From NCBI RefSeq assembly GCF_900108185.1, contig NZ_FNVA01000004.1, positions 1 through 64,000 on the forward strand: a stretch of 64,000 nucleotides of DNA, given 5' to 3'. Under the pieces are notes generated by a model. The model ran no database searches. It was not told the origin of the DNA and saw only the letters and a program-made list of their open reading frames with translations. Each line of letters starts with the position of its first letter. The stretch's first letter is position 1. The DNA is from Bryocella elongata (GTDB taxonomy: Bacteria > Acidobacteriota > Terriglobia > Terriglobales > Acidobacteriaceae). The translations under genes and the position numbers were made by a program. Of the stretch, positions 35,984-46,458 are shown in pieces.

Positions 35984-36012
35984 TTGACAGCCGAGCAGGA
36001 CGTAGGTAAATT
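35984..36012 (+). promoter_or_regulatory. Strong sigma-70-like promoter for a leaderless cysteine-containing ORF
   Basis: TTGACA at 35984-35989, a 17-base spacer, then TAAATT at 36007-36012. Initiation about seven bases downstream falls on, or next to, the ATG at 36020, so the transcript would be leaderless. Confidence 0.65.
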
Positions 36013-36019
36013 CCAGCCT

Positions 36020-36100
36020 ATGGCACGTAACTCCAACATGCTTTGTTGTCCGTCGCACATTGCTGTCGGCGGATGCGGGTTTGTGTCCTACTGTTCCTGA
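36020..36100 (+). CDS. Putative 26-residue leader peptide with a Cys-Cys pair (attenuator leader 1)
   Basis: A short ORF starting at the predicted transcription start and ending with TGA at 36098-36100. It has Cys codons at positions 9 and 10 (TGT TGT, 36044-36049) and two further cysteines near the end (GGCGF and SYCS). No Shine-Dalgarno sequence precedes it, as expected for a leaderless mRNA. It is followed 37 bases later by a rho-independent terminator and then by a c-type cytochrome gene. GCGGG at 36075-36079 could pair with CCCGC in the left terminator arm, an alternative fold. The layout resembles the Cys-rich leaderless leader ORFs described in actinobacteria. Expression and function are inference. 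A small RNA of about 150 nt is the alternative reading. Confidence 0.5.
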   Translation: MARNSNMLCCPSHIAVGGCGFVSYCS

Positions 36101-36136: not shown

Positions 36137-36169
36137 CCCGCTCGCCACTCTGGCTTGAGCGGGTTTTTT
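36137..36169 (+). terminator. Rho-independent terminator / attenuator ahead of the cytochrome-TlpA-LanC-like cluster
   Basis: CCCGCTC and GAGCGGG form a 7-bp perfect stem (with a small inner GCCA/TGGC pairing) followed by six T. It lies between the short Cys ORF and the cytochrome gene on the same strand, so it would either end a roughly 150-nt transcript or act as an attenuator. Confidence 0.82.
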
Positions 36170-36291
36170 GTGAATCGCGACCTTGTGACGCGCGCTTTCC
36201 GATGGCCCTGCTCGCGCGGGCGGATTCGGGTGCGTACTCCCCTGCGCACCTGCCCTCCTTATCAGTTGAAAGAGACAGGTCGATTGTCGTG

Positions 36292-37788
36292 ATGAAGATC
36301 GAATGGCATGGCCGGGGATGGTTCTCCGGATCGCAATGGGCACGATCCTCAGGGTCGCAAAGGGCATTGCTGCAATCGCCGCGCGCGGTGCTGTTTGCGC
36401 TGGCGTGGAGCGGGTTGTCGCTGGCTGCGGTGTGGGCGGTGCATCATGCCGGGGCGCAGATTGCGGTGCGCAACCAGGGCTATGTGCCCTTCAGCGAAGC
36501 ACCGATCAACTACCGGTCCGAGGATCTGCATGATCCTGTGGCGAAGCTGCAGCAGCGGCTCAACGACGGGAAGGCCACGCTGGCCTATGAGCCGCAGTTC
36601 GGCTATCTGCGCTCGGTGCTGAAGCAGCTGAACGTGCCGGTGGAGTCGCAGACGCTGGTGTTCTCGAAGACCAGCTTTCAGTACAAGAAGATTTCTCCTG
36701 ACCATCCGCGTGCGTTGTACTTCAACGACGACGTGTATGTGGGCAAGGTGCATGACGGCAAGGCGATCGAGATCGTGTCATTCGATCCGGTGCAGGGCGC
36801 GATCTTCTACCTCCTGGATGAGCACCAGTCGGAGCATCCGGTGTTTCAGCGTGCGGAGCTGGACTGCACGCAATGCCACATCGCCGCGGGGACGCGGGGA
36901 GTACCGGGTGTGCTGCTGCGGTCGATCTATCCGACCGAGACAGGGACGCTGGCGAGTGACTCGCGCTCGTACATCACTGACCAGGAGAGCCCGCTGTCAG
37001 AGCGTTGGGGCGGATGGTATGTGACGGGTGTGAAGCAGGGCCATGCAGGGCTGGCGAACGCGGTGGTGCCGCAGGGCAGCGGCGATCAAGCGGCTGCGAG
37101 CGCGCCGGAGCTGCACCTGGCAGCGCTGGGAAAGAACGCGTTCGATGAGGCGAGTTATCTCTCCAACAGCAGCGATGTGGTGGCGCACCTGGTGCTGGCC
37201 CATCAGACGCAGATGCACAACCTGATTACGCTGACGAACTATCGCACGCGCATTGCGCTGTACAACGCAGCCAAGCGCGAAGGCGCGACGGACCCAAGCG
37301 CGGTGGTGCTGAACGACGGCGACCGCGAGCAGTTTGAGCGGCCAGCGGAGCAGCTGCTTCGCTACCTCCTGTTCACCAAGGAAGCTTCGCTGGCAGAGGG
37401 TGGTGCGGCGATTGATCCGCACTCTTCGTTTGCGAAGGAGTTCGCTGCACAGGGTTTGCGTGACGCGCATGGGCGGTCATTGCGCGACTTCGATCTGCGT
37501 ACACGCACCTTCCGCTATCCCTGCAGCTACCTGATCTATTCGGAGTCCTTCGACGAGCTTCCCGAGCCGGCGAAGAGCTATGTGTATCACCGCTTGTTCC
37601 TGGTGCTTACGGGCCAGGACCAAAGTGAGGCCTTTGCGTCCCTCACCGAGCAGGACCGCAGCAACGTATTCGAGATCCTCCTCGCGACCAAGCCTGGTCT
37701 GCCAGAGGAGTGGAAGACCTACGCGAAGGCCAACCATCTTCGTGTCCGCCTGGCGCAGTCGCGCGCCCGCCCAAGCCGGCAGGGATAA
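36292..37788 (+). CDS. Membrane-anchored monohaem cytochrome c-like protein of unknown role
   Basis: About 498 residues: one N-terminal transmembrane helix (ALFALAWSGLSLAAVWAV, about 33-50), a large periplasmic part, and a single haem-attachment motif CTQCH at 192-196. Other conserved-looking segments include LSERWGGWYVTG and DRSNVFEILLATKPGLP, which I do not recognise from a characterised enzyme. The length is far beyond a simple cytochrome c, so an enzymatic or structural domain is likely. I started at the ATG 36292 ahead of the membrane helix; an ATG at 36202 gives 30 more residues without a better ribosome site. It heads the plus-strand series cytochrome, TlpA-like, LanC-like, CHRD, cytochrome, DsbD-alpha. 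Confidence 0.68.
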   Translation: MKIEWHGRGWFSGSQWARSSGSQRALLQSPRAVLFALAWSGLSLAAVWAVHHAGAQIAVRNQGYVPFSEAPINYRSEDLHDPVAKLQQRLNDGKATLAYEPQFGYLRSVLKQLNVPVESQTLVFSKTSFQYKKISPDHPRALYFNDDVYVGKVHDGKAIEIVSFDPVQGAIFYLLDEHQSEHPVFQRAELDCTQCHIAAGTRGVPGVLLRSIYPTETGTLASDSRSYITDQESPLSERWGGWYVTGVKQGHAGLANAVVPQGSGDQAAASAPELHLAALGKNAFDEASYLSNSSDVVAHLVLAHQTQMHNLITLTNYRTRIALYNAAKREGATDPSAVVLNDGDREQFERPAEQLLRYLLFTKEASLAEGGAAIDPHSSFAKEFAAQGLRDAHGRSLRDFDLRTRTFRYPCSYLIYSESFDELPEPAKSYVYHRLFLVLTGQDQSEAFASLTEQDRSNVFEILLATKPGLPEEWKTYAKANHLRVRLAQSRARPSRQG

Positions 37789-37828
37789 GCGCTTACCCAA
37801 GCTTCACCAACCCCGAAAGGAAGGCAAC

Positions 37829-39205
37829 ATGAAACGCATCTTCCGCAGTGCGGGCCTCGCGGCCCTCGGTACAGGACTTCTTGCCGGCGCAGCGGCCGCG
37901 CAATCGACTCATAGCGCAACATCCGTGGACGGCCGCTGGGACGCGGCGCTGACGCGCAACGGCGTGAGCGTACCGTTCCGGCTGGACATCGAAGGCGATG
38001 GCCCAACGCTTCGCGGCGTGCTGTATGACGGTTTTCAACCGTATGAGCACACCACGTCGGCGACGTTCCAGGATGGCAACCTGACGTTGCGTATCGACCA
38101 CTACCTGACGACGATCAATGCAAGCCTGCAGGGCGACAAGCTGGTGGGCGGTATCGGGTACCAGGCGCGTTCGGCGAACGTGGACTATGAGTTCAGCGCG
38201 ACGCGTCATGTGGATGCGGCCGTGACGGAGTCGAAGGCGCCGTCGATCGCGGGATCGTGGATCATACCGCTGGATCGTCCTTCGGCGAAGGGTGAGAAGG
38301 CGTTCCACTTCATCGTGGAGCAGCGTGGCACCGAGGTGGCTGCGTCGATCCTGCGTGTGGATGGCGACACGGGGTCGTATAGCGGCAGCTTCCACGACGG
38401 CAAGTGGGTGTTGAGCCACTATGACGGCTCGAGGCCCGGTGTGATCGAGGTGACACCGAACAGCGACGGCACGCTGCAGGTGAAGCAGCTGAGCTTCAAC
38501 CCTCAGGCTGAGAATACGAAGCCTCAGGACAATGCGTACACCGTTGCTGAGGCTGACAGCCGGTACTCATCGAACCTGGTTGCGTACCGTGCCGAGGTGG
38601 CGAAGGCCAAGGGACTGCCGGAGCCTGAGAACTACCTGGCGCACACCACGGTGCGCGATACGCATGAGGCCTTCGCGTTCAACTTCCCGGATGTGAACGG
38701 CAAGGCGGTGTCGAACGACGATCCGCGCTTCAAGGGCAAGGTGGTGCTGGCGATTGTGACCGGCACGTGGTGCCCGAACTGCCACGATGAAGCGCAGTAT
38801 CTTGTCCAGCTCGACAAGAAGTACCGGGACAAGGGGCTGGCCATCGTCGCGCTGGACTTCGAAGAGCCGGAGCAGCAGGCGAGCCTGGAGCGCGAGAAGG
38901 CGTTCGTGAAGCAGTATGGCGTGGAGTACACCTACTTGATCGCGGGTGCGCCTTCCGACATGTGGGAGAAGGTGCCGCAGCTGGTGAACCTGAACACGTG
39001 GCCGGCGACGGTGTTCGTGGGGCGCGATGGCCGCGTGCGTGCGGTGCATTCGGGCTTTGCTTCACCGGCGAGCGGAGAGTTCCATCGCGACCTGGAGAAG
39101 GAGTTCACGGCGCAGATCGAGCAGCTGTTGAGTGAGACGCAGCAACAGGCGGCGGCAGTGAACATCGTTCCGCCGTCGGTTACGCCAGCGAAGGCGGGCG
39201 AGTAA
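37829..39205 (+). CDS. Secreted TlpA-like thioredoxin-fold protein with a large N-terminal domain
   Basis: 458 residues with a signal peptide (MKRIFRSAGLAALGTGLLAGAAAAQ). Residues about 30-235 form a beta-rich domain of unknown function. The C-terminal part (about 275-435) is a TlpA/AhpC-type thioredoxin domain with the active site TWCPNCHDE (C315, C318) and the cis-proline region NTWPATVF. CPNCH also satisfies the CXXCH haem-attachment pattern, but the surrounding WCxxC context argues for a disulfide oxidoreductase. It would reduce disulfides or service cytochrome maturation in the periplasm. GAAAGGAAGG precedes the ATG at 37829, 40 bases after the cytochrome gene. A strong hairpin follows the stop. 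Confidence 0.85.
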   Translation: MKRIFRSAGLAALGTGLLAGAAAAQSTHSATSVDGRWDAALTRNGVSVPFRLDIEGDGPTLRGVLYDGFQPYEHTTSATFQDGNLTLRIDHYLTTINASLQGDKLVGGIGYQARSANVDYEFSATRHVDAAVTESKAPSIAGSWIIPLDRPSAKGEKAFHFIVEQRGTEVAASILRVDGDTGSYSGSFHDGKWVLSHYDGSRPGVIEVTPNSDGTLQVKQLSFNPQAENTKPQDNAYTVAEADSRYSSNLVAYRAEVAKAKGLPEPENYLAHTTVRDTHEAFAFNFPDVNGKAVSNDDPRFKGKVVLAIVTGTWCPNCHDEAQYLVQLDKKYRDKGLAIVALDFEEPEQQASLEREKAFVKQYGVEYTYLIAGAPSDMWEKVPQLVNLNTWPATVFVGRDGRVRAVHSGFASPASGEFHRDLEKEFTAQIEQLLSETQQQAAAVNIVPPSVTPAKAGE

Positions 39206-39252
39206 GCAGCGCCGATCCATTCCTCCGGGCCACCAGGCGATAGAACGGCGCG

Positions 39253-39281
39253 GCCCGCACCGGTACAGCTCCGGTGCGGGC
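39253..39281 (+). terminator. Strong hairpin after the TlpA-like gene (no T-run)
   Basis: GCCCGCACCGG and CCGGTGCGGGC pair perfectly over 11 bp with a 7-base loop. No T-tract follows, so it may be a transcript stabiliser or pause/processing structure rather than a classical terminator. It divides the TlpA-like gene from the small Cys-rich ORF and the LanC-like gene. Confidence 0.5.
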
Positions 39282-39319
39282 TGCGCTGAGCAAAGAAGAC
39301 GAAGTAGATGGAGAAGACC

Positions 39320-39499
39320 ATGAATCGCAAGATCACGATGTCGTGTTGCAGCTCTCCCACATGCACGAAGAAGGCTTTGCCGGAGCAGAAGCCAATCGAG
39401 AAGCAGGAGTCATCGCGCGCCCGGAACCGGCGCATCGTGAAGGAGAGAGGTTATGCATCAGCAAGGAACGGAAGCCGCACTGGGAATCACACGCCGTAG
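39320..39499 (+). CDS. Small Cys-rich ORF overlapping the LanC-like gene (possible leader or RiPP-like peptide)
   Basis: 59 codons with a good ribosome site (GGAGAAG a few bases before the ATG). The N-terminus reads MNRKITMSCCSSPTCTKK and is rich in Ser, Thr and Cys; the rest is basic and polar (RARNRRIVKERG). It overlaps the start of the LanC-like gene by 47 bases in another frame, so the two would be translationally coupled. A Ser/Thr/Cys stretch beside a LanC-fold protein is suggestive of a modified peptide, but the putative core lies at the N-terminus, opposite to normal lanthipeptide precursors. It could equally be a Cys-codon leader for the LanC-like gene. It could also be noise. Confidence 0.35.
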   Translation: MNRKITMSCCSSPTCTKKALPEQKPIEKQESSRARNRRIVKERGYASARNGSRTGNHTP

Positions 39500-40958
39500 T
39501 TTTCTGCGCGGCGGCGCGCTGACTGCGCTGGGTCTGCCAACGCTGAGAGGCAGCTCCGAGATCACGCGCAACGCGCAGGTCAGCTTCAAGCCGAGCGCGG
39601 ATTTGCTGGCTGCGTCGGTGCAGACGGCGAGCTGGGTGCGCAGCGCGGAGCGCCGCACGCCGCAGGGGAGCTTCTGGCTGCCGGAGCCGGATCATCCGGA
39701 GAAGCTCGCCACGATCTCACCGGCACAGGGTTTGTACAGCGGCAGCGCGGGCACGCTGCTGTTCTTCCTGCAGCTGGCGAAGGCCACGCAGGACCGCTCG
39801 TACCTGGAGGATGCGAAGCGCGCGGCGGACTATCTTGCGTCGACGTGGCGCGAGGGCGATGAGGCGGCGCAGCTTCCTGCAGCGCGGCGGTACTCGTTCT
39901 ACAACGGCCTTGCGGGCACGGCCTTCGCGCTTACAGAGACATGGAAGGCCACGGGCGATGCGCGCTACAAGGACGCTGCGATTGCCATCACGGACAAGCT
40001 GGTGGAGGCGGCGCAGCCGGCGGGTGCAGGGATTGCGTGGTCTAGCTCGCCGGGTGTTGGAGCCGATGGCGGCGTGGTGCTGTACCTGCTCTACGCGGCG
40101 AATGCGCTGGAGCGCGGAGACTATCGCATCGTGGCGAAGAAGGCCGGCGAGCGGATTGCGGAGCTGGGCGAACGGAGCCCGCAGGGAGGTACGCAGTGGC
40201 GTGGCGGACCACCGCCGAAGGGCTTGCCTGCGGACACGTACTTTCCTAACTTCGAGATGGGAACAGCAGGGATTGCGTATGTGTTGGCGAGGCTGTTCGA
40301 AGAGACGGGCGATGCACGTTACCTCGATGCAGCGAAGAGTGGAGCGGAGCACCTGCAGAACATCGCGGTGGTGGACCATGACAGCGCGTTGATTCCGTAT
40401 CGTCTGCCGGACCTGGCGAACATCTACTACCTGGGTTTCTGCCATGGGCCTGCGGGATCGGCGCGGCTGTTCTATCAGCTGCATAAGATCACGAAGCAGG
40501 ATGCCTATCTTGAGTGGACGGAGAGGCTGGCGCATGGCGTGATTCGCAGCGGGATTCCGGACACGCAGACGCCGGGCTACTGGAACGTGGTGTGCCAGTG
40601 CTGCGGCTCGGCGGGTGTGACGGACTTCTTCCTGGGGCTGTGGGCCGCGACGGGCAAGGATGAGTATTATGCCTTCGCCAACAAGGTGGCGGAGCAGACG
40701 CTGGGGCAGCATTCGAACCTGGATGGCAAGGGCTATCGCTGGTACCAGGCATGGACAAGGGTGAAGCCGTGGGACGTGAACGCGGAGACGGGGTACTCGA
40801 TCGGCGCATCGGGCGTGGGATCCGCGTTGCTGCATGCGGCGCTGGCGCAGCAGGGGAGATATGAGGCTATCGTGCTGCCGGACAATCCCTTTCCCGCGAG
40901 CCGGCATGAAGATCTCGAAGCAGCACGGCGGCCCATTGAGCTTGAGTTCTTACCTTGA
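39453..40958 (+). CDS. Tat-exported LanC-like (lanthionine synthetase C fold) protein with Cys-Cys-Gly zinc motif
   Basis: 501 residues. The N-terminus has a twin-arginine signal (TRRSFLRGGALTALGL, RR at 14-15). The mature protein shows seven GxxG-type repeats of an alpha/alpha toroid (GLYSGSAGT, YNGLAGTAF, GADGGVV, FEMGTAGIA, GFCHGPAGS, CCGSAGV, GASGVGSA), as in LanC. Zinc ligands align as C330 (FCHGPAG, replacing WCYGxPG) and C383-C384 (QCCGSAG, where LanC has Cys-His-Gly), suggesting a three-cysteine site like that of ProcM-type enzymes. No LanM dehydratase or LanB is nearby. GAAGGAGAGAGG precedes the ATG. A thioether-forming enzyme is possible, but LanC-fold glycosidase-like or glutathione-related roles are alternatives. 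Confidence 0.75.
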   Translation: MHQQGTEAALGITRRSFLRGGALTALGLPTLRGSSEITRNAQVSFKPSADLLAASVQTASWVRSAERRTPQGSFWLPEPDHPEKLATISPAQGLYSGSAGTLLFFLQLAKATQDRSYLEDAKRAADYLASTWREGDEAAQLPAARRYSFYNGLAGTAFALTETWKATGDARYKDAAIAITDKLVEAAQPAGAGIAWSSSPGVGADGGVVLYLLYAANALERGDYRIVAKKAGERIAELGERSPQGGTQWRGGPPPKGLPADTYFPNFEMGTAGIAYVLARLFEETGDARYLDAAKSGAEHLQNIAVVDHDSALIPYRLPDLANIYYLGFCHGPAGSARLFYQLHKITKQDAYLEWTERLAHGVIRSGIPDTQTPGYWNVVCQCCGSAGVTDFFLGLWAATGKDEYYAFANKVAEQTLGQHSNLDGKGYRWYQAWTRVKPWDVNAETGYSIGASGVGSALLHAALAQQGRYEAIVLPDNPFPASRHEDLEAARRPIELEFLP

Positions 40959-41013
40959 GGTTTCAGTTGGGCGAAGCTGACTTCCGCATTTCGTGCGGGA
41001 TGAAGGAGCGCCT

Positions 41014-41041
41014 CTAGGGCTGCCGTCACGAGACGCCCTAG
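41014..41041 (+). other. Intergenic hairpin between LanC-like and CHRD genes
   Basis: CTAGGGC and GCCCTAG form a 7-bp stem with a 14-base loop and no T-run. A smaller CCGCA/TGCGG hairpin lies at 40984-40998. They are probably RNA structures in the 131-base gap; their role is unknown. Confidence 0.3.
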
Positions 41042-41089
41042 GTCCGCGGCAGCCGCCAACATCTATCAACCCGATATGAGGACAATCCG

Positions 41090-41536
41090 ATGATTCGCAC
41101 TGCCCATGTTCTACGTTCCATCACATGCGCTGCGGCGCTGCTGGTTCCTGCCATCGTTGCCAGCGCTGAGACGTTGCACTTCAAAGCGGAGCTCAAAGGA
41201 GCTTCGGAGGTTCCGGCGAAGGACAGCCCAGGGACGGGTACGCTCACCGCGACGCTGGATACGACGACCAACGAGTTCAAGTATCACGTGGAGTACAGCG
41301 GGCTGACGGGCCCGGTGGTGGCGGCGCACTTCCACGGCCCGGCAGTGGCGGGTGCGAACGCGCGGCCCACAGTGCCGGTGAAGATCAGCCCGATTGCCAG
41401 CCCCATCGACGGCACCGCGACGCTCACGCCGGAGCAGATCAAGGACCTGGAGGACGGCAAGTGGTACTTCAACCTTCACACCAGTGCGAATCCTTCCGGA
41501 GAGGTTCGCGGGCAGGTGCAGAAGAGTGAAGAGTAG
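41090..41536 (+). CDS. Secreted CHRD-domain protein
   Basis: 148 residues with a signal peptide (RSITCAAALLVPAIVASAE) followed by one CHRD domain: LHFKAELKGASEVPAKDSPGTGT, AAHFHGPA and WYFNLHTSANPSGEVRGQV. CHRD domains are named after chordin and occur in many bacterial secreted proteins without a defined activity; the histidine-rich HFHGP segment may bind metal. GAGGA precedes the ATG. The last codons overlap the GTG start of the following diheme cytochrome, so both are translated together. Confidence 0.87.
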   Translation: MIRTAHVLRSITCAAALLVPAIVASAETLHFKAELKGASEVPAKDSPGTGTLTATLDTTTNEFKYHVEYSGLTGPVVAAHFHGPAVAGANARPTVPVKISPIASPIDGTATLTPEQIKDLEDGKWYFNLHTSANPSGEVRGQVQKSEE

Positions 41537-41960
41537 CAACGCTGGATTCGTGTGGGCCGGGTTGGCCTTTGCGGCAGCACTTGCTGCTGTGAAGGCTCCC
41601 GGCGCCGTGGTGTATGGAGCGCAGTCTGCGGCTGCAGCAGAGAGCACGGTGCGCAACCTGAAGGTGCTGCCGAAGGACATCTCGCCCGTGGAGCTGAACC
41701 GGTTGATGCTGCAGTACAAGCAGGGGTTGGGCGTGCCCTGCGGGTACTGCCATGCGGAGACCCAGGAGGGAAGGCCGGATTATGCCTCGGACGAGAACCC
41801 GATCAAAGAGACGGCGCGGGTGATGATCGGCATGACGCGGGACATCAACGAGACGTATCTCGCGAAGGTGGGGGACCGCCGGTACGCGGACCCGATTACC
41901 TGCGGCAACTGTCACCAGGGGCTGCCGCATCCGCCGGTGTTTACGCCCAAGGCGCAGTAA
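41526..41960 (+). CDS. Diheme c-type cytochrome, photosynthetic reaction-centre cytochrome (CytoC_RC) type
   Basis: 144 residues with an N-terminal hydrophobic export signal (FVWAGLAFAAALAAV). Two haem-attachment motifs are present, CGYCH (72-76) and CGNCH (126-130). VRNLKVLPKDISPVELNRLMLQYKQGLGVPCGYCH is the hallmark of the CytoC_RC family that acidobacteria carry without photosynthesis; a methionine in MIGMTRDIN is a candidate axial ligand. It should carry electrons in the periplasm. The start is the GTG at 41526, overlapping the CHRD stop by 11 bases. A strong hairpin follows 31 bases after the stop. Confidence 0.82.
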   Translation: MKSSNAGFVWAGLAFAAALAAVKAPGAVVYGAQSAAAAESTVRNLKVLPKDISPVELNRLMLQYKQGLGVPCGYCHAETQEGRPDYASDENPIKETARVMIGMTRDINETYLAKVGDRRYADPITCGNCHQGLPHPPVFTPKAQ

Positions 41961-41991
41961 GCCGCGGGCCTAGGTGAGCGTGCTGCAAGCG

Positions 41992-42029
41992 TGCTGCGAG
42001 GAGATGAGCCTCCGTCCTCGCAGCATTAT
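41992..42029 (+). terminator. Terminator-like hairpin after the CHRD-cytochrome pair
   Basis: TGCTGCGAGGA and TCCTCGCAGCA form an 11-bp perfect stem with a 12-base loop, followed by TTATT. It ends about 45 bases before the DsbD-alpha-like gene. Confidence 0.65.
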
Positions 42030-42073
42030 TCCGTTTCCATGAATGCAGACCCCGGTAAGGAACCGAACCTCGA

Positions 42074-42553
42074 ATGACCGCACGTGCTCTAAGGATTGTC
42101 GTCGTTACGCTCGCTGTTGGGAGCCCGTTACTTGTCGCGCAGGGGCCTGCGCCGCAACCTGTGCAATGGAAGGTTGTGCGTGCTGAACGCGGCGCGGGCG
42201 GGGCCAGCACGTTCCGTGTCGAGCTCGCGGGCAGCGTTACGCCGGGATGGCACGTCTACGCGCAGCAGGAGCCGGAGAACGGGCCGATACCCTTGCGTGT
42301 TGCGGTTGAGGACAGCAGCCGTGCGGAGATCATCGGCACGATCGGCGGAACAGCGCCGACGCGACGCACCGACCCAAGCTTCGAGCTGGAGACCGAGGTG
42401 TACCTGAGCGACTTCACGCTGGTGGTGCCGGTTCGATGGAAGCACGAACCGGACACCGGCGGGCCCATCGTACTCAACGTGCGCTACCAGGCGTGCAACG
42501 ACCACACATGCCTGCCTCCGCGGACGGTCCATCTCTCTGTGCCGCCGAGCTGA
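42074..42553 (+). CDS. Stand-alone DsbD alpha-domain-like secreted protein
   Basis: 159 residues: signal peptide, then a single immunoglobulin-like domain resembling the N-terminal domain of DsbD. The key segment is VRYQACNDHTCLPP, giving the redox pair C141 and C146 in the same context as the CxxxxxC of DsbD-alpha (spacing here is four residues). The membrane and thioredoxin domains of DsbD are absent, so it must receive electrons from another protein; the TlpA-like protein upstream is a candidate partner. WHVYAQQEPENGPIPLRV matches the first half of the family. It is the last plus-strand gene of this series, convergent with the OmpA-like gene. Confidence 0.8.
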   Translation: MTARALRIVVVTLAVGSPLLVAQGPAPQPVQWKVVRAERGAGGASTFRVELAGSVTPGWHVYAQQEPENGPIPLRVAVEDSSRAEIIGTIGGTAPTRRTDPSFELETEVYLSDFTLVVPVRWKHEPDTGGPIVLNVRYQACNDHTCLPPRTVHLSVPPS

Positions 42554-42586
42554 GTGGAGGCAGGCGAAGGCCAGCGATGTGGCCAG

Positions 42587-43375
42587 CTACTTGGGGATGA
42601 TGGAAGTTGTCGCGGGATGATCGGGTGTGGGACGGGGCGGCAGCGGGGTGAGCGGGGTCTTGCCCTGCGAGCCGTCCATGTCTGCCGGAGCGCTGCTGCG
42701 GTGCAGGGCGGCGAACTCCTTGTTCTCGGCTTCGAGCTCGGCCGGGGAGCCATCCACGGAGCCTGGGACGATCCTCGGGCGCGGCTGCGCAGTAAGTGTC
42801 TCTTCGTCGGGCGAGTAGCAGGGTGTGATGGTGCAGGGCTTCTCGTTGGTCTTGGTGACGCCGAGAAAGTTGTGGTTGTAGTCGGCCGAGGAAGGCACGA
42901 GATAGAAGGTGACGGTTTGCGCGAAGTAACTCTCATCCGTTGTGGGGATGATCCGCGTGGCGTCCGAGCGGAGATAGTGCACGAGATACCACTTGGTGTT
43001 GACGGCGCGGTAGGCGGAGAGATCTTCGAGGCGCACATCGAAGCCGGTGGCGTCTTCCTCTTCGCGGCCGGAGCCGTTGCCGGTGAGCTCATGGTCCTTG
43101 GCGGGGTCCTTGACGCCGACGAGGACCAGCTTGCGATCCGCACTTGCCTTCAAGCGCTCGGCGGCTTCTTTCAGGCACGGCAGCGCGCTGTTTTCGATGC
43201 GTGCGGGACGGCGTGCGTCCTTGTCGAAGGCGATGGAGCAGACCTCGTCTACACCGGCGGGGGGCGCGGGTTTCTGATGTGCCTGGGCCAACGATGGCGT
43301 GGTGACGGCGAGGGCTAGCAGGAAGGGAAGCATTGCGAACGGGTTCTTCGCGGAATGTTTGATCTCGAATTTCAT
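42587..43375 (-). CDS. Secreted OmpA-like-domain protein with proline-rich C-terminal tail
   Basis: 262 residues with a signal peptide (MLPFLLALAVTTPSLAQA). Residues about 45-140 resemble an OmpA/MotB peptidoglycan-associating domain (CSIAFDKDARRPARIENSALPCLKEAAERLK, VLVGVKD, LSAYRAVNTKWYLVHYL). The remainder is unfamiliar. The extreme C-terminus (LTPLPP-x-PT-x-DHPA-x-TSI) is nearly the same as that of the next gene on the same strand, although the two proteins otherwise differ. This gene is downstream of that gene by 94 bases and probably in the same transcript. A periplasmic structural role is likely; nothing more can be said. Confidence 0.72.
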   Translation of the reverse strand: MKFEIKHSAKNPFAMLPFLLALAVTTPSLAQAHQKPAPPAGVDEVCSIAFDKDARRPARIENSALPCLKEAAERLKASADRKLVLVGVKDPAKDHELTGNGSGREEEDATGFDVRLEDLSAYRAVNTKWYLVHYLRSDATRIIPTTDESYFAQTVTFYLVPSSADYNHNFLGVTKTNEKPCTITPCYSPDEETLTAQPRPRIVPGSVDGSPAELEAENKEFAALHRSSAPADMDGSQGKTPLTPLPPRPTPDHPATTSIIPK

Positions 43376-43469
43376 TGAGGTCTCTCTTCGTTATGTTGCG
43401 GAGGCAGCTTGATACGGTTCCACCGCTGTGAGCCGCACAAGCGCACGGCTTGCAGCGATGGGAGCGTGT

Positions 43470-44378
43470 CTACTGCGGAATCGATGTCACCGCAGGATGA
43501 TCCTTGGTGGGCGGCGGAGGCAAGGGAGTCAGCTTGTCGAAGCCGCGCTGTCCATCGGCGCCGATCTTGCCGGGGCCGGGCCCGAGGTGCGGAGCGTCCA
43601 CGTTGTCTTCTGAGCAGGAGTATTCGTGCACCTCATCGCCGGGCTTACCCAGCAGCCAGGTGCGTTGGTAGTGGACGGGCTCGGTGTAGAACTTGGAGTC
43701 GTTGACGACCATCTCGAGATGCAGGTGGCCGGCATCGGGGCGGGTCCAGCGCTCGAGGACATGCTGCGCGTCGCTGTGGGGATTGGCGTTCTCGTCGGCC
43801 CAGGTGCGCTCCTGCTTGAAGCCGGTGGAGTCGATGACGAAGGTGTCGCCATCCCAGGAGCCGATCTCTTCGCCGAAGAACGAAGGGTCGGGATCGTCGC
43901 TGTGCTTGCTGCCATCAAAGGGCACGAGGCGATAGGTGGTGTACCAGTAGAGGAAGACGGCGTGGTCCTGGCCCTGCAGCAGCTGGAAGGGAAGGCCGCT
44001 GGCGTTGTGGCGCGGCAGACCACCGACGATGCAGAGCGCTTCGGGGTCGACGGTGTGCTCGACGTTGTACTTGTGGGCCTTTTCGCCGGCCGGGGTGAAG
44101 GGCAGCTTGTAGCCGGGGAAGTCCTTACCGAGATTGCCGACGGGCTTGTCGGCGGGTGCATGCGAAGGGACCCAGTAACCGGAGAGATCGGGGTGTTCGC
44201 CGAGACGCGGCGCAGGGCCCTTGGGTAGATCGGCTTCGCTGCGGGAGAAGGGCGAGTTGGAGCGGCCGGTCTCATCGGTGGCGGCCTTGGCGGGCTCCTG
44301 CGCATGGATGGCACAGGAGAGCAAAAGTGCAAGCGCGGCTGCGAACGCAGGAGCGCCGAAGTGTGGCTTGAGCCTCAA
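43470..44378 (-). CDS. Secreted protein of unknown function with the same C-terminal tail as its neighbour
   Basis: 302 residues with a signal peptide (AAALALLLSCAIHAQ). The body contains PDLSGYWVPS, ALCIVGGLPRHN, LLQGQDHAVFLYWYTTYRLVPFDG, GSWDGDTFVIDSTGF and HLHLEMVVND, a pattern common to acidobacterial secreted proteins often found near DUF6152 genes. It carries no known catalytic motif. The C-terminus LTPLPPPPT-x-DHPAVTSIPQ repeats the tail of the downstream gene. The start is a TTG at 44376-44378 with AAAGGATC seven bases upstream. It is divergent from the DUF6152/DUF6644 unit that begins with a Cys-rich leader. Confidence 0.72.
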   Translation of the reverse strand: MRLKPHFGAPAFAAALALLLSCAIHAQEPAKAATDETGRSNSPFSRSEADLPKGPAPRLGEHPDLSGYWVPSHAPADKPVGNLGKDFPGYKLPFTPAGEKAHKYNVEHTVDPEALCIVGGLPRHNASGLPFQLLQGQDHAVFLYWYTTYRLVPFDGSKHSDDPDPSFFGEEIGSWDGDTFVIDSTGFKQERTWADENANPHSDAQHVLERWTRPDAGHLHLEMVVNDSKFYTEPVHYQRTWLLGKPGDEVHEYSCSEDNVDAPHLGPGPGKIGADGQRGFDKLTPLPPPPTKDHPAVTSIPQ

Positions 44379-44669
44379 GCGAAGATCCTTTCTATTCCGT
44401 CGAGGACCACACCGCCGCGCGGCGACGACATGCCAATAAAGGCACGCACGTCATCTCACAGATGCGGCAGTGAATGGCAGACGGGGCTTTGGGGGTGAGT
44501 GGAGGAGACATGCCGTCACTGCAAGGTGCAGTGAGCGTTCACGCGGTTGTGCTTAGCGACCGTCCTTAGCGACAGGAGCAGCAACAACAGCGGCGTGAAC
44601 AACGCATCGTGGAGATGCAGGGCATTGCCAGAACGTAACGGATTGTGAGCAACGCGTCAAGCCCTGCGC

Positions 44670-44698
44670 TTGACATCGAGGGGCCACATGCCTACATT
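44670..44698 (+). promoter_or_regulatory. Strong sigma-70-like promoter for a leaderless poly-Cys leader ORF
   Basis: TTGACA at 44670-44675, a 17-base spacer, then TACATT at 44693-44698. Transcription would start at about 44705, exactly the ATG of the leader ORF. Same architecture as the promoter at 35984-36012. Confidence 0.7.
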
Positions 44699-44704
44699 GC
44701 GAAT

Positions 44705-44827
44705 ATGCTCTTTCTCGCAGTCGCGTTTTGTTGTTGCTGTGCACTCCTCGCTGGAGTGGACGGCTTCGGTGCGCGTCCGGCTGTGAGGCGTGTGGTTCCT
44801 GCGATACGCAGGAGACCGCGCGCGTAA
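44705..44827 (+). CDS. Putative 40-residue leader peptide with four consecutive cysteines (attenuator leader 2)
   Basis: A leaderless short ORF (MLFLAVAFCCCCALLAGVDG, then an Arg-rich tail) ending with TAA at 44825. Codons 9-12 are TGT TGT TGC TGT (44729-44740). Directly after them CACTCC (44742-44747) can pair with GGAGTG (44753-44758). The overlapping GAGTGG (44754-44759) could instead pair with CCACTC at 44860-44865, in the loop and left arm of the terminator downstream. A ribosome stalled on the Cys codons would cover the first arm and favour the second pairing, the logic of an amino-acid attenuator. The gene under control would be DUF6152 at 44939. Pairings are by eye and unscored; function is inference. 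Confidence 0.6.
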   Translation: MLFLAVAFCCCCALLAGVDGFGARPAVRRVVPAIRRRPRA

Positions 44828-44849
44828 GCGGCTCGGCCGCAACACATCG

Positions 44850-44879
44850 AAGGCCCGCTCCACTCGGAGCGGGCCTTTT
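44850..44879 (+). terminator. Strong rho-independent terminator / attenuator ahead of the DUF6152 gene
   Basis: AAGGCCCGCTCC and GGAGCGGGCCTT form a 12-bp perfect stem with the four-base loop ACTC, followed by TT. Being symmetrical, it could also stop transcription from the right. It lies 23 bases after the poly-Cys ORF and 60 bases before the DUF6152 start. Confidence 0.85.
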
Positions 44880-44938
44880 CGTTTGTCCCAAAGACTCTCC
44901 TGATCATTCAAGCCCTCAATTCTTACAAAGGAACTGAC

Positions 44939-45391
44939 ATGAAAGCCAAGTTCGCGATGTATCCGCTTGCCGTAGCCGCACTGATCTCTGCAGTGCCTGC
45001 TTACGCGCATCATTCCTTCGCCGCCGAGTTTGACGGCACCAAGCCCACTCGCCTGGTCGGCAAGATTACGCGTGTGGAGTGGACGAATCCGCATTCATAC
45101 TTCTACGTGGACGTCATCGACCCGAAGGGAGGCAAGTCAACGAACTGGGGTTGCGAGGGCGCTGGCCCTGGCGCACTCAGCCGCCGCGGATGGAAGAAGG
45201 GTGATCTCAAGATCGGCGACCAGATCGTCGTCGATGGTTACCGCGCGAAGGACGGGTCGCATCTCATCGATGCTCGTCGCGTGACCTTCCCTGACGGCCG
45301 TTCCGTGTACGGCGGAAGCCCCGGTGATGGTGGCCCTGGCGACAACGGCACGGATCAGGGCAACCTCCCTGGCTCAAACAAGAAGAGCTAG
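44939..45391 (+). CDS. Secreted DUF6152-family protein
   Basis: 150 residues with a signal peptide (MYPLAVAALISAVPAYA). The mature protein begins HHSFAAEFDGTKPTRLVGKITRVEWTNPHSYFYVDV, the hallmark of DUF6152. The domain looks like an OB-like small beta fold; the N-terminal HH would become the mature N-terminus and could bind copper or another metal, though this is speculative. The C-terminal 30 residues are Gly/Pro/Asp rich. AAGGA precedes the ATG. It is the first structural gene behind the poly-Cys leader and attenuator. DUF6152 genes are commonly found beside DUF6644 genes, as here. Confidence 0.85.
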   Translation: MKAKFAMYPLAVAALISAVPAYAHHSFAAEFDGTKPTRLVGKITRVEWTNPHSYFYVDVIDPKGGKSTNWGCEGAGPGALSRRGWKKGDLKIGDQIVVDGYRAKDGSHLIDARRVTFPDGRSVYGGSPGDGGPGDNGTDQGNLPGSNKKS

Positions 45392-45403
45392 GATTTGCTG
45401 GCT

Positions 45404-45439
45404 GCCGGCGTCGTCTCTCCTGCGGCGCCGGCGATTTTT
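45404..45439 (+). terminator. Terminator between the DUF6152 and DUF6644 genes
   Basis: GCCGGCG and CGCCGGC form a GC-rich 7-bp stem with a 15-base loop, followed by GA and TTTTT. It starts 13 bases after the DUF6152 stop. It would reduce, or prevent, transcription into the DUF6644 genes. Confidence 0.65.
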
Positions 45440-45458
45440 CCCCATGGTGTTTCTCTCG

Positions 45459-45956
45459 ATGACCGAACCCATTCTCAAGCATGTCTGCCAGGTCTTCTAC
45501 GACTCGCACTTTGGCACCGCCATCCGTGAGTCCGACAACTCGTTCTCCATCATTGAGTCGGTGCATGTGCTGGCTATCACGCTGCTGGTGGGGACTATCT
45601 CGATCCTCGATCTCCGCATGCTTGGTCTGGTTCTGTGTGAGATTCCTGTGACGCGCATCGCACGCGCCGTCTTCCCCTTTACATGGGCGGGCTTCGGTGT
45701 GATGTTCGTGAGCGGGTTTCTGCTGTTCTGGGCGGAAGCTGCAAAGAACTACGTGAATCCCGCCTTCCGCGTGAAGGTGATCCTGCTGCTTCTGGTTGGC
45801 TTGAATCCGCTTCTCTTCCACACGTCCGTGTACCGGCGAGTGACCGAATGGGAGCACGAACATCGCTCGCCGTGGAGAGCACGTGCGGCGGCGCTTGCCT
45901 CGCTCACGTTATGGAGCGGGGTCATCGTCGCTGGACGGGCCATCGCGTACTTCTAA
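45459..45956 (+). CDS. DUF6644-family membrane protein, copy 1
   Basis: About 165 residues with four transmembrane helices (IIESVHVLAITLLVGTISILDL, VFPFTWAGFGVMFVSGFLLFWAE, RVKVILLLLVGLNPLLFH, AALASLTLWSGVIVAGRAIAY). SVHVLAITLLVGTISILDLRMLG with its conserved histidine and the closing WSGVIVAGRAIAY are shared with the next gene, so the two are tandem paralogues. Conserved histidines within helices would suit haem or metal binding, but this is not established. The start at 45459 (MTEPIL) is preferred; an ATG at 45444 is five codons upstream. Neither has a strong ribosome site. Confidence 0.78.
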   Translation: MTEPILKHVCQVFYDSHFGTAIRESDNSFSIIESVHVLAITLLVGTISILDLRMLGLVLCEIPVTRIARAVFPFTWAGFGVMFVSGFLLFWAEAAKNYVNPAFRVKVILLLLVGLNPLLFHTSVYRRVTEWEHEHRSPWRARAAALASLTLWSGVIVAGRAIAYF

Positions 45957-45978
45957 CGCCGCTACAGGAAGGATTGTT

Positions 45979-46458
45979 TTGCTTTCACCGCAGCATTGGT
46001 TCACGGCCCTGGCGCAGTCTGCGCTTGGACACTACATGCAGACGAGCCAATGGGCCTTCGCGATTACGGAGATGGTCCACCTGCTCGCACTCGCTGCGCT
46101 CGGCGGCTCGGTGCTCTTCATTGACCTCAGGCTGCTTGGCGTGGTGCTCAAGAAGGAATCAGCCGCGGGGATCAGCCGAGACCTGGGACGTATCCTGCTC
46201 GTGAGCCTTACCGTGATGATCGTATCCGGCATAGGCCTGCTTTCGGAGGAGGCGATGAAGTGCTACTTCAGTCCTGCCTTCCGTTGGAAGATGGCCCTGC
46301 TGGCTGCGTCCGTGGTGTTCTACTTCACGTTGCATCGGCGAGCCGTGCAGCTTGCTGCAACCGGCGCCGCTGATTTGTGGCAGCGCACGATCGCAGTCAT
46401 CTCGCTCACACTTTGGCTTGGAGTGGGTGTTGCCGGGCGGGCCATCGGTCTTGTATGA
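45979..46458 (+). CDS. DUF6644-family membrane protein, copy 2
   Basis: About 159 residues with four transmembrane helices, paralogous to the preceding gene (FAITEMVHLLALAALGGSVLFIDLRLLG, LVSLTVMIVSGIGLLSEE, WKMALLAASVVFYFTLHRR, ISLTLWLGVGVAGRAIGLV). The start is the TTG at 45979, six bases after AGGAAGGA; no ATG gives a plausible N-terminus. It follows copy 1 by 22 bases, so both are in one transcript. The pair may form a heterodimeric membrane unit acting with the DUF6152 protein; the function is unknown. Confidence 0.77.
   Translation: MLSPQHWFTALAQSALGHYMQTSQWAFAITEMVHLLALAALGGSVLFIDLRLLGVVLKKESAAGISRDLGRILLVSLTVMIVSGIGLLSEEAMKCYFSPAFRWKMALLAASVVFYFTLHRRAVQLAATGAADLWQRTIAVISLTLWLGVGVAGRAIGLV

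Follow-up and report, generated by a model that had tools for sequence, protein, structure and literature searches.

A candidate leaderless cysteine attenuator upstream of DUF6152 and DUF6644 genes in an acidobacterium and a probable sulfur regulon of the same type

Introduction

In mycobacteria, leaderless ORFs with contiguous Cys codons precede cysteine-metabolic operons, according to four papers (PMC9094748, PMC13236596, PMC9031893, PMC4633059). In one of them, these cysteine-rich leaderless upstream ORFs (uORFs) were proposed as the first bacterial cysteine-directed attenuation (Shell et al. 2015, PMC4633059), and two others describe them as acting on translation (PMC9031893, PMC13236596). 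The locus analyzed here shares with this type the leaderless short ORF, the contiguous Cys codons and, as we propose, the readout of cysteine supply. It differs in belonging to another phylum, in its divergent pairing, in its targets, which include genes for DUF6152, DUF6644 and TlpA-like proteins and outer-membrane barrels, and in having an intrinsic terminator with competing hairpins in place of the translational attenuation described there. A first-pass annotation of this DNA had inferred the same logic as in mycobacteria; the cysteine-rich leaderless ORF bears this out, while the mode of control, inferred to be terminator-based here, does not. The mycobacterial poly-cysteine leaderless short ORFs were reportedly followed up by Canestrari et al. 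in 2020 (doi 10.1111/mmi.14498).

Attenuators of the trp/his type combine an intrinsic terminator and 1:2, 2:3 and 3:4 hairpins with a leader ORF in which several codons for the regulated amino acid follow one another. The codon run, the alternative hairpins and the terminator recur in the present locus, which departs from that type in lacking a Shine-Dalgarno leader (the predicted mRNA start is the ATG itself), in the amino acid concerned, cysteine, and in the scattered regulon. Copper-responsive Cys-containing uORFs also exist, e.g. CruR of Bordetella. They too are short upstream ORFs containing Cys, whereas the adjacent Cys codons, the codon bias and the sulfate-assimilation targets found here point to cysteine supply.

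According to a 2010 survey, hardly any of the attenuators predicted in Acidobacteria could be linked to a function (PMC2965389). The open-access literature, of which only top-ranked results were considered for larger queries and which leaves subscription papers uncovered, yielded no cysteine attenuators in Acidobacteria and nothing on DUF6152. Relative to it, the phylum, the terminator logic, the divergent pairing and the regulon look new; the principle is known from mycobacteria.

Results

Arrangement of the leader

The DNA under study is a single stretch of 64 kb, referred to below as the window, and the features discussed are listed in Table 1. From the sequence alone, the first-pass annotation had described a TTGACA-N17-TACATT promoter, an ATG at the transcription start expected at about 44705, Cys at codons 9-12 and a stop at 44825, followed by a terminator and a DUF6152 gene, and all of these elements were found as described, the gene being confirmed by its Pfam match. 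Two points had to be corrected: the terminator stem comprises 13 pairs (dG -26.6), not 12, and the window holds three poly-Cys sites instead of the one named, since the divergent ORF and the site at 36020 had been missed. Between 43800 and 46800, where 0.4 sigma-70-like sites were expected, the scanner returned one, the leader promoter. The fold of the leader RNA had a z of -6.8 against shuffled sequences. No Rfam match above the gathering score was obtained across the whole window.

Table 1. Features of the three poly-Cys sites and the neighboring genes in the window
Feature	Position	Strand	Basis or remark
Promoter TTGACA, N17, TAAATT; ATG after seven bases	35984..36012	+	
Third leaderless ORF MARNSNMLCCPSHIAVGGCGFVSYCS, ATG 36020	36020..36100	+	homologue in L110
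Terminator-like hairpin and T-run	36137..36169	+	z -2.7; counterpart hairpin in L110
Gene row: CXXCH protein, TlpA/ResA-like, LanC-like, CHRD, CytoC_RC, DsbD_N	36202..42553	+	same strand; operon not shown
262-aa protein, downstream of the 302-aa gene	42587..43375	-	no family match
302-aa protein, signal-like N-terminus	43470..44378	-	no Pfam/NCBIfam match; kept beside DUF6152
Divergent leaderless ORF MPCISTMRCSRRCCCCSCR, ATG 44625	44566..44625	-	four adjacent Cys codons, 44589-44578
Divergent promoter TTGACG, N17, TACGTT; ATG after six bases	44632..44660	-	
Promoter TTGACA (44670-44675), N17, TACATT (44693-44698); ATG after 6 nt	44670..44698	+	sequence; similar spacing in relatives
Leaderless leader ORF MLFLAVAFCCCCALLAGVDGFGARPAVRRVVPAIRRRPRA, ATG 44705, 40 codons including stop (44825-44827)	44705..44827	+	sequence
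Four adjacent Cys codons TGT TGT TGC TGT (codons 9-12)	44729..44740	+	sequence
Segment 1, CACTCC; partner segment 2	44742..44747	+	folding
Segment 2, GGAGTGG; partner segment 1 or segment 3	44753..44759	+	folding
Intrinsic terminator: segment 3 (44849-44861), segment 4 (44866-44878), T-rich tail	44849..44878	+	
DUF6152 gene (PF19649, E 7.5e-30); predicted exported, predicted OB fold	44939..45391	+	
DUF6644 gene (PF20349), first copy	45447..45956	+	Pfam
DUF6644 gene (PF20349), second copy	45979..46458	+	Pfam

Conservation at DUF6152 loci

Close DUF6152 genes were sought in 200 genomes of the family, in a set of 61 genomes, which gave G010 of the same genus, and in public contigs (22 loci), and after duplicates had been merged by contig, 13 distinct leader loci remained (the window, L035, L036, L008, L037, L038, L039, L040, L043, L045, L059, L061 and L062). 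All nine of the 200 family genomes that carry a close DUF6152 gene have the leader, which makes 10 of 10 with G010. At each of the 13 loci we observed a leaderless ORF in which two to four Cys codons are adjacent, the first two being TGT TGT. The two promoter boxes stand 17 bases apart (18 in L008), the -10 box matches TANNNT except in L038 (TAAACA), and the ATG follows it after 6 or 7 bases; the wider class of such ORFs likewise shows gaps of 6-7 nt and spacers of 17 nt, in a few cases 16 or 18, all of this without 5'-end data. Outside the Cys run the leader peptides diverge (e.g. MFSLAASRCCRCSLPLEWTSACARL, MPATTASLCCCSSLIF, MVAIPSLLCCCSSIRL, MRSVSILRCCPCCPFE, MHPLRTMLGCCCSLHR), and the Cys residues themselves vary in number and spacing (CC, CCC, CCCC, CCRC, CCPCC). 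Loss of the Cys codons in close relatives with the flanks kept, which the annotation had named as a refutation, did not occur, the Cys codons and the spacing being retained at 13 of 13 leader loci.

Such a leader was absent from 14 of the 22 public DUF6152 contigs (40-77% identity, mostly other acidobacterial groups) and from 26 fetched DUF6152 paralogue loci of other families (L009-L034). Sequence identity does not separate the groups, as L040 with the leader and L048 without it both stand at 77%. Since these distant loci lack the leader, the presence of DUF6152 alone is no criterion for the regulon. Class and phylum names of the loci are presumed here from contig titles and general taxonomy. 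The paralogue loci come mostly from genomes G054 and G060, and two genomes from other families of the class hold an expanded DUF6152 set, with 45 and 64 matches. Matches to the leader DNA in genomes L003 and L004 were discarded, as they proved to be terminators of similar stem for which the scan showed no Cys ORF.

The divergent ORF and the third site

The second poly-Cys ORF shares the intergenic region with the first and runs the opposite way, the two -35 boxes being nine bases apart. The scan recovered it at 12 of the 13 DUF6152 loci and reading of the sequence at the thirteenth (L038), where the -10 box is weak (AAATCT). The two ATGs are 80-97 bases apart at 11 of the 13 loci, 370 in L043 and 408 in L059. 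The divergent ORF faces the gene of the 302-aa protein; L038 has a different gene order on this side. At the third site, the permissive terminator finder picked a different hairpin from the one listed in Table 1.

Terminators and alternative folds

An intrinsic terminator was observed between the leader ORF and DUF6152 in all 13 leaders (dG -12 to -27). In each of 13 leaders upstream of genes with the NIR_SIR domain (see below), the permissive finder also reported a terminator-like hairpin, which lies some 90-110 bases from the ATG and in most of them has a GCCCACGA...TCGTGGGC stem. Among the divergent leaders, 10 of 12 pass the same finder with dG of -7 to -14, but their hairpins are weak and change places, and therefore we do not call them terminators. 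Several leaders of TlpA-type genes have no convincing hairpin.

This uneven distribution bears on the chief rival explanation, in which the Cys ORFs act on translation, so that stalling alters access to the downstream gene start, as in mycobacteria. Translational attenuation is described for M. smegmatis in the parts available of two papers (PMC9031893, PMC13236596), and the absence of a consistent strong terminator from the divergent and several other leaders agrees with such a mode, which is possible for the divergent 302-aa leader and for the TlpA-type leaders. As a general account it appears unlikely to us, because every DUF6152 leader has its terminator and every NIR_SIR leader its terminator-like hairpin.

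For the preferred reading, attenuation of transcription, the folds themselves matter. In the window leader, the proposed pairing of CACTCC (44742-44747) with GGAGTG is possible, while the antiterminator partner had to be reassigned: the annotation had chosen a loop-side CCACTC, and the best partner of segment 2 is CCGCTCC (44855-44861) inside the terminator stem, since relatives without CCACTC, e.g. L035, keep the GGAGTGG:CCGCTCC pairing. In the DUF6152 leaders the stretch behind the Cys codons, often GAGTGGACGG, has two possible partners, the sequence immediately preceding it and the 5' arm of the terminator. The plain 2:3 duplex exceeded shuffled sequences at p <0.05 in only 4 of the 13 leaders, with p 0.16 for the window's own. 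When folding was computed with a ribosome on the Cys codons, the terminator 5' arm of all 13 leaders was paired upstream more often than when the ribosome was absent; none of 120 shuffles reached the ribosome-dependent switch of the window leader, and p values of other leaders ranged up to 0.28. The combined p of 6e-7 over 11 representatives assumes independence and is overstated, because the representatives are related. A leader's own segment 2 was the best partner for 5 of the 11 arms, and for the other six at least three foreign segments paired better, so that covariation is only partial. Hence, of the mutually exclusive folds claimed earlier, the version that takes the ribosome position into account is supported, and a test of the plain duplex of this leader fails to support them. 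The ORFs also differ in length: the window ORF (Table 1) runs past segment 2, L035 and L036 have 25 codons and other forms 16, and thus in the window, L035 and L036 translation does not terminate on segment 2, unlike in the 16-codon forms.

Poly-Cys ORFs upstream of other genes

A gene-family test that used no covariance models was performed on 26 genomes of the genus, with the best-scoring loci, at most 30 per family. A leaderless ORF containing a CC pair was located upstream on the same strand at 13 of the 30 best-scoring NIR_SIR loci and at 6 of the 30 best-scoring PF01507 loci, versus none of 30 RecA-family loci (Fisher p 5e-5 and 0.02, respectively), six of the latter 30 being weak paralogue or partial matches. 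Judged by length, the PF01507 loci comprise 22 of CysD type and eight of CysH type, and all six positives are among the former. Elsewhere in the 319 kb of this test the scan matched twice, both times at one shared place. Without the promoter rule, Cys-rich short ORFs stood at the same distance at 11 of the 22 CysD-type loci and at further NIR_SIR loci; for the wider class, under a looser criterion, poly-Cys short ORFs were counted at 8 of 30 NIR_SIR loci. In a sample of the phylum, 4 of 27 newly fetched NIR_SIR loci had poly-Cys ORFs, two of these four in the home family. The genome of the window itself has such ORFs before CysD and the NIR_SIR reductase (loci L130, L159): MNLLSTLGVRCCASGACCLSGCCCEL precedes CysD, which scores above the NCBIfam cut-off, and MRAFRTTVCCPSAGASASAAARW precedes the NIR_SIR protein, whose nearest family is NirA and whose score reaches no cut-off.

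The NIR_SIR proteins score nearer to NirA-type nitrite reductases than to CysI, again below every cut-off. Since a siroheme-synthase-like gene follows the reductase gene (family-tested only in L104), we regard the protein as probably an assimilatory sulfite reductase; nitrite is not excluded and a sulfur role is not shown, which slightly lowers our confidence in both the attenuator and the regulon reading.

A covariance search was carried out with two models and likewise placed ORFs of this class before CysD, NIR_SIR and other genes. Model R1, a sequence-only model of promoter and ORF start, was run on 150 family genomes; about 100 matches were listed, most of them weak, and 16 regions were fetched for new sites and four for the context of the DUF6152 locus. 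They contained 16 further class ORFs outside that locus, whereas L100, L105 and L107 contained none and three other scan matches look spurious. Among the genes downstream of these ORFs are CysD-CysN-CysH in L102, the NIR_SIR reductase with the siroheme protein in L104 and, judged by sequence likeness, in L106, a 1-Cys peroxiredoxin in L096, TlpA-like proteins in L095 and elsewhere, an outer-membrane beta barrel in L103 and, in L112, a YeiH-like protein that stays below the NCBIfam cut-off. Model R2, run on 28 genomes of the genus with 20 regions fetched, added a MetN-like ATPase with a NIL domain (below cut-off) followed by an NlpA/permease protein (L235), and a sulfatase with an outer-membrane barrel (L240). 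The CysD, MetN-like and sulfatase loci thus show such ORFs in front of cysteine or sulfur genes; for DUF6152 itself this link is inferred. The ORFs before CysD and NIR_SIR genes of the same genus, including those of the window's own genome, are the strongest support for the attenuator reading.

In L103, from 4035 onward, two poly-Cys ORFs stand in tandem before the outer-membrane beta-barrel gene, MASRNSSLSACRCCCARLCALALL found by the scan and MSQISPIRPISPLNRCCCCSR read from the sequence. Leaderless Cys ORFs also cluster within tens of kilobases at L233, L234 and L111 (G007:C1 3.39-3.43 Mb) and at L236 and L237 (G010:C4 0.38-0.40 Mb), and the regulon is therefore partly gathered in islands.

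Codon choice and remaining alternatives

In 60 leader ORFs, whose first CC falls at codons 8-15, cysteine is encoded by 183 TGT and 71 TGC, the opposite of the 36 TGT and 130 TGC in 41 long ORFs of the window. The covariance models may favor TGT, but the 19 leaders found via gene families show the bias as well: they contain 69 TGT versus 24 TGC, a bias greater than that of their other codons. The pattern fits selection on codons rather than on the peptide and is compatible with a ribosome-stalling element.

It also weighs on the possibility that the nascent Cys-rich peptide senses metal or redox state and governs metal or redox genes. The cytochrome, thioredoxin-like and DsbD_N genes of the island beginning at 36 kb and the AHHSF motif of DUF6152 proteins would suit such a role; we find it quite improbable nonetheless, as the Cys residues are variable in number and spacing but biased in codon choice, and as the same leaders precede CysD, MetN-like and sulfatase genes.

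Cys pairs also occur in promoterless short ORFs at many places, yet a chance origin, or a small protein-coding gene with no regulatory function, can hardly be entertained for sites that are kept at 13 loci, missing at 30 of 30 RecA-family loci and, in the strict class (TTGAC-N18-TANNNT-N6/7-ATG with CC within 20 codons), present three times in the 64-kb window versus never in 200 first-order Markov simulations of it.

Products of the associated genes

NCBIfam offers no name for the DUF6152 and DUF6644 proteins, and their function is inferred. DUF6152 proteins have a conserved AHHSF at the expected mature N-terminus. The structure model of the DUF6152 protein shows an OB fold (mean pLDDT 75) whose top PDB matches are PriB/SSB at E ~1e-3; no PDB match reached E <=0.001, and an OB fold gives no function. 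The model of the 302-aa protein is poor (pLDDT 63) and uninformative, with weak matches to lipid-binding barrels. Membership in the regulon suggests a role of DUF6152, DUF6644 and the 302-aa family in cysteine starvation or sulfur scavenging.

Sulfur sparing was considered as independent support and rejected. Methionine makes up 0.72% of the residues encoded by the 34 first genes behind poly-Cys ORFs and 1.57% in the remaining ORFs of these loci. However, 30 leaderless-ORF-free outer-membrane proteins from a single family average 0.78%, and four members of that family with a leader are only slightly poorer (p 0.046). Low methionine failed this exported-protein control and, because export is a confounder, was not counted. 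Proteins of the window island 36202-46458 contain 0.67% methionine versus 1.93% in the rest of the window.

Discussion

The arrangement, its conservation, the terminators, the association with particular genes and the folding tendency are observations. From them we propose, with a probability of roughly 0.8, that the window leader is a leaderless, ribosome-mediated transcription attenuator which reads cysteine supply and controls the DUF6152 and DUF6644 genes within a sulfur regulon. The idea of a cysteine attenuator in an acidobacterium, put forward in the first-pass annotation, is thus supported by Cys codons at 13 of 13 loci and by ORFs of the same type before CysD and NIR_SIR. In the absence of expression, ribosome or starvation data, the transcription start, translation, stalling and the response to cysteine remain inferences. 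The mRNA would start at the ATG, which would let a 70S ribosome load on the leaderless ORF at once. With Cys-tRNA plentiful, the ribosome would pass the Cys codons, segment 2 would be covered or paired with segment 1, and the terminator (3:4) would form and halt transcription upstream of DUF6152. With Cys-tRNA scarce, the ribosome is predicted to stall at the Cys codons and mask segment 1, whereupon segment 2 may pair with the terminator 5' arm (2:3), no terminator would form, and DUF6152 and DUF6644 would be transcribed.

A like switch may also head the divergent 302-aa gene, the gene row from 36 to 42.5 kb and, in the same genome, CysD and the NIR_SIR reductase, and such switches would make the locus part of a cysteine- or sulfur-starvation regulon. 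In its broad form, which we consider likely, though with less assurance than the reading of the single leader, the proposal is that much of the sulfur economy of Terriglobia is governed by a scattered regulon of leaderless poly-Cys transcription attenuators. It would cover sulfate assimilation, the NIR_SIR reductase, methionine-type uptake, a sulfatase, outer-membrane barrels and an exported system of DUF6152, DUF6644, the 302-aa family, TlpA-like, CHRD and cytochrome genes with a role in cysteine starvation or sulfur scavenging.

If this is true, a single reading of cysteine could, through divergent attenuators placed back to back, set the genes on either side of an intergenic region. Leaderless Cys ORFs would then be a means of attenuation in Acidobacteriota too, which raises the question of whether it evolved more than once, and the ORFs would provide a simple marker for sulfur-regulated genes in acidobacteria. 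DUF6152, DUF6644 and the 302-aa family, to which no role has been assigned so far, gain a testable one in sulfur metabolism.

A further observation concerns one of the regions fetched with model R2, where a beta-carbonic-anhydrase-like protein is encoded behind the poly-Cys ORF MHSSASTCCRPCSSLSSRSC (L238:3431-4009). Carbonyl sulfide, which some relatives hydrolyse, is a possible sulfur source.
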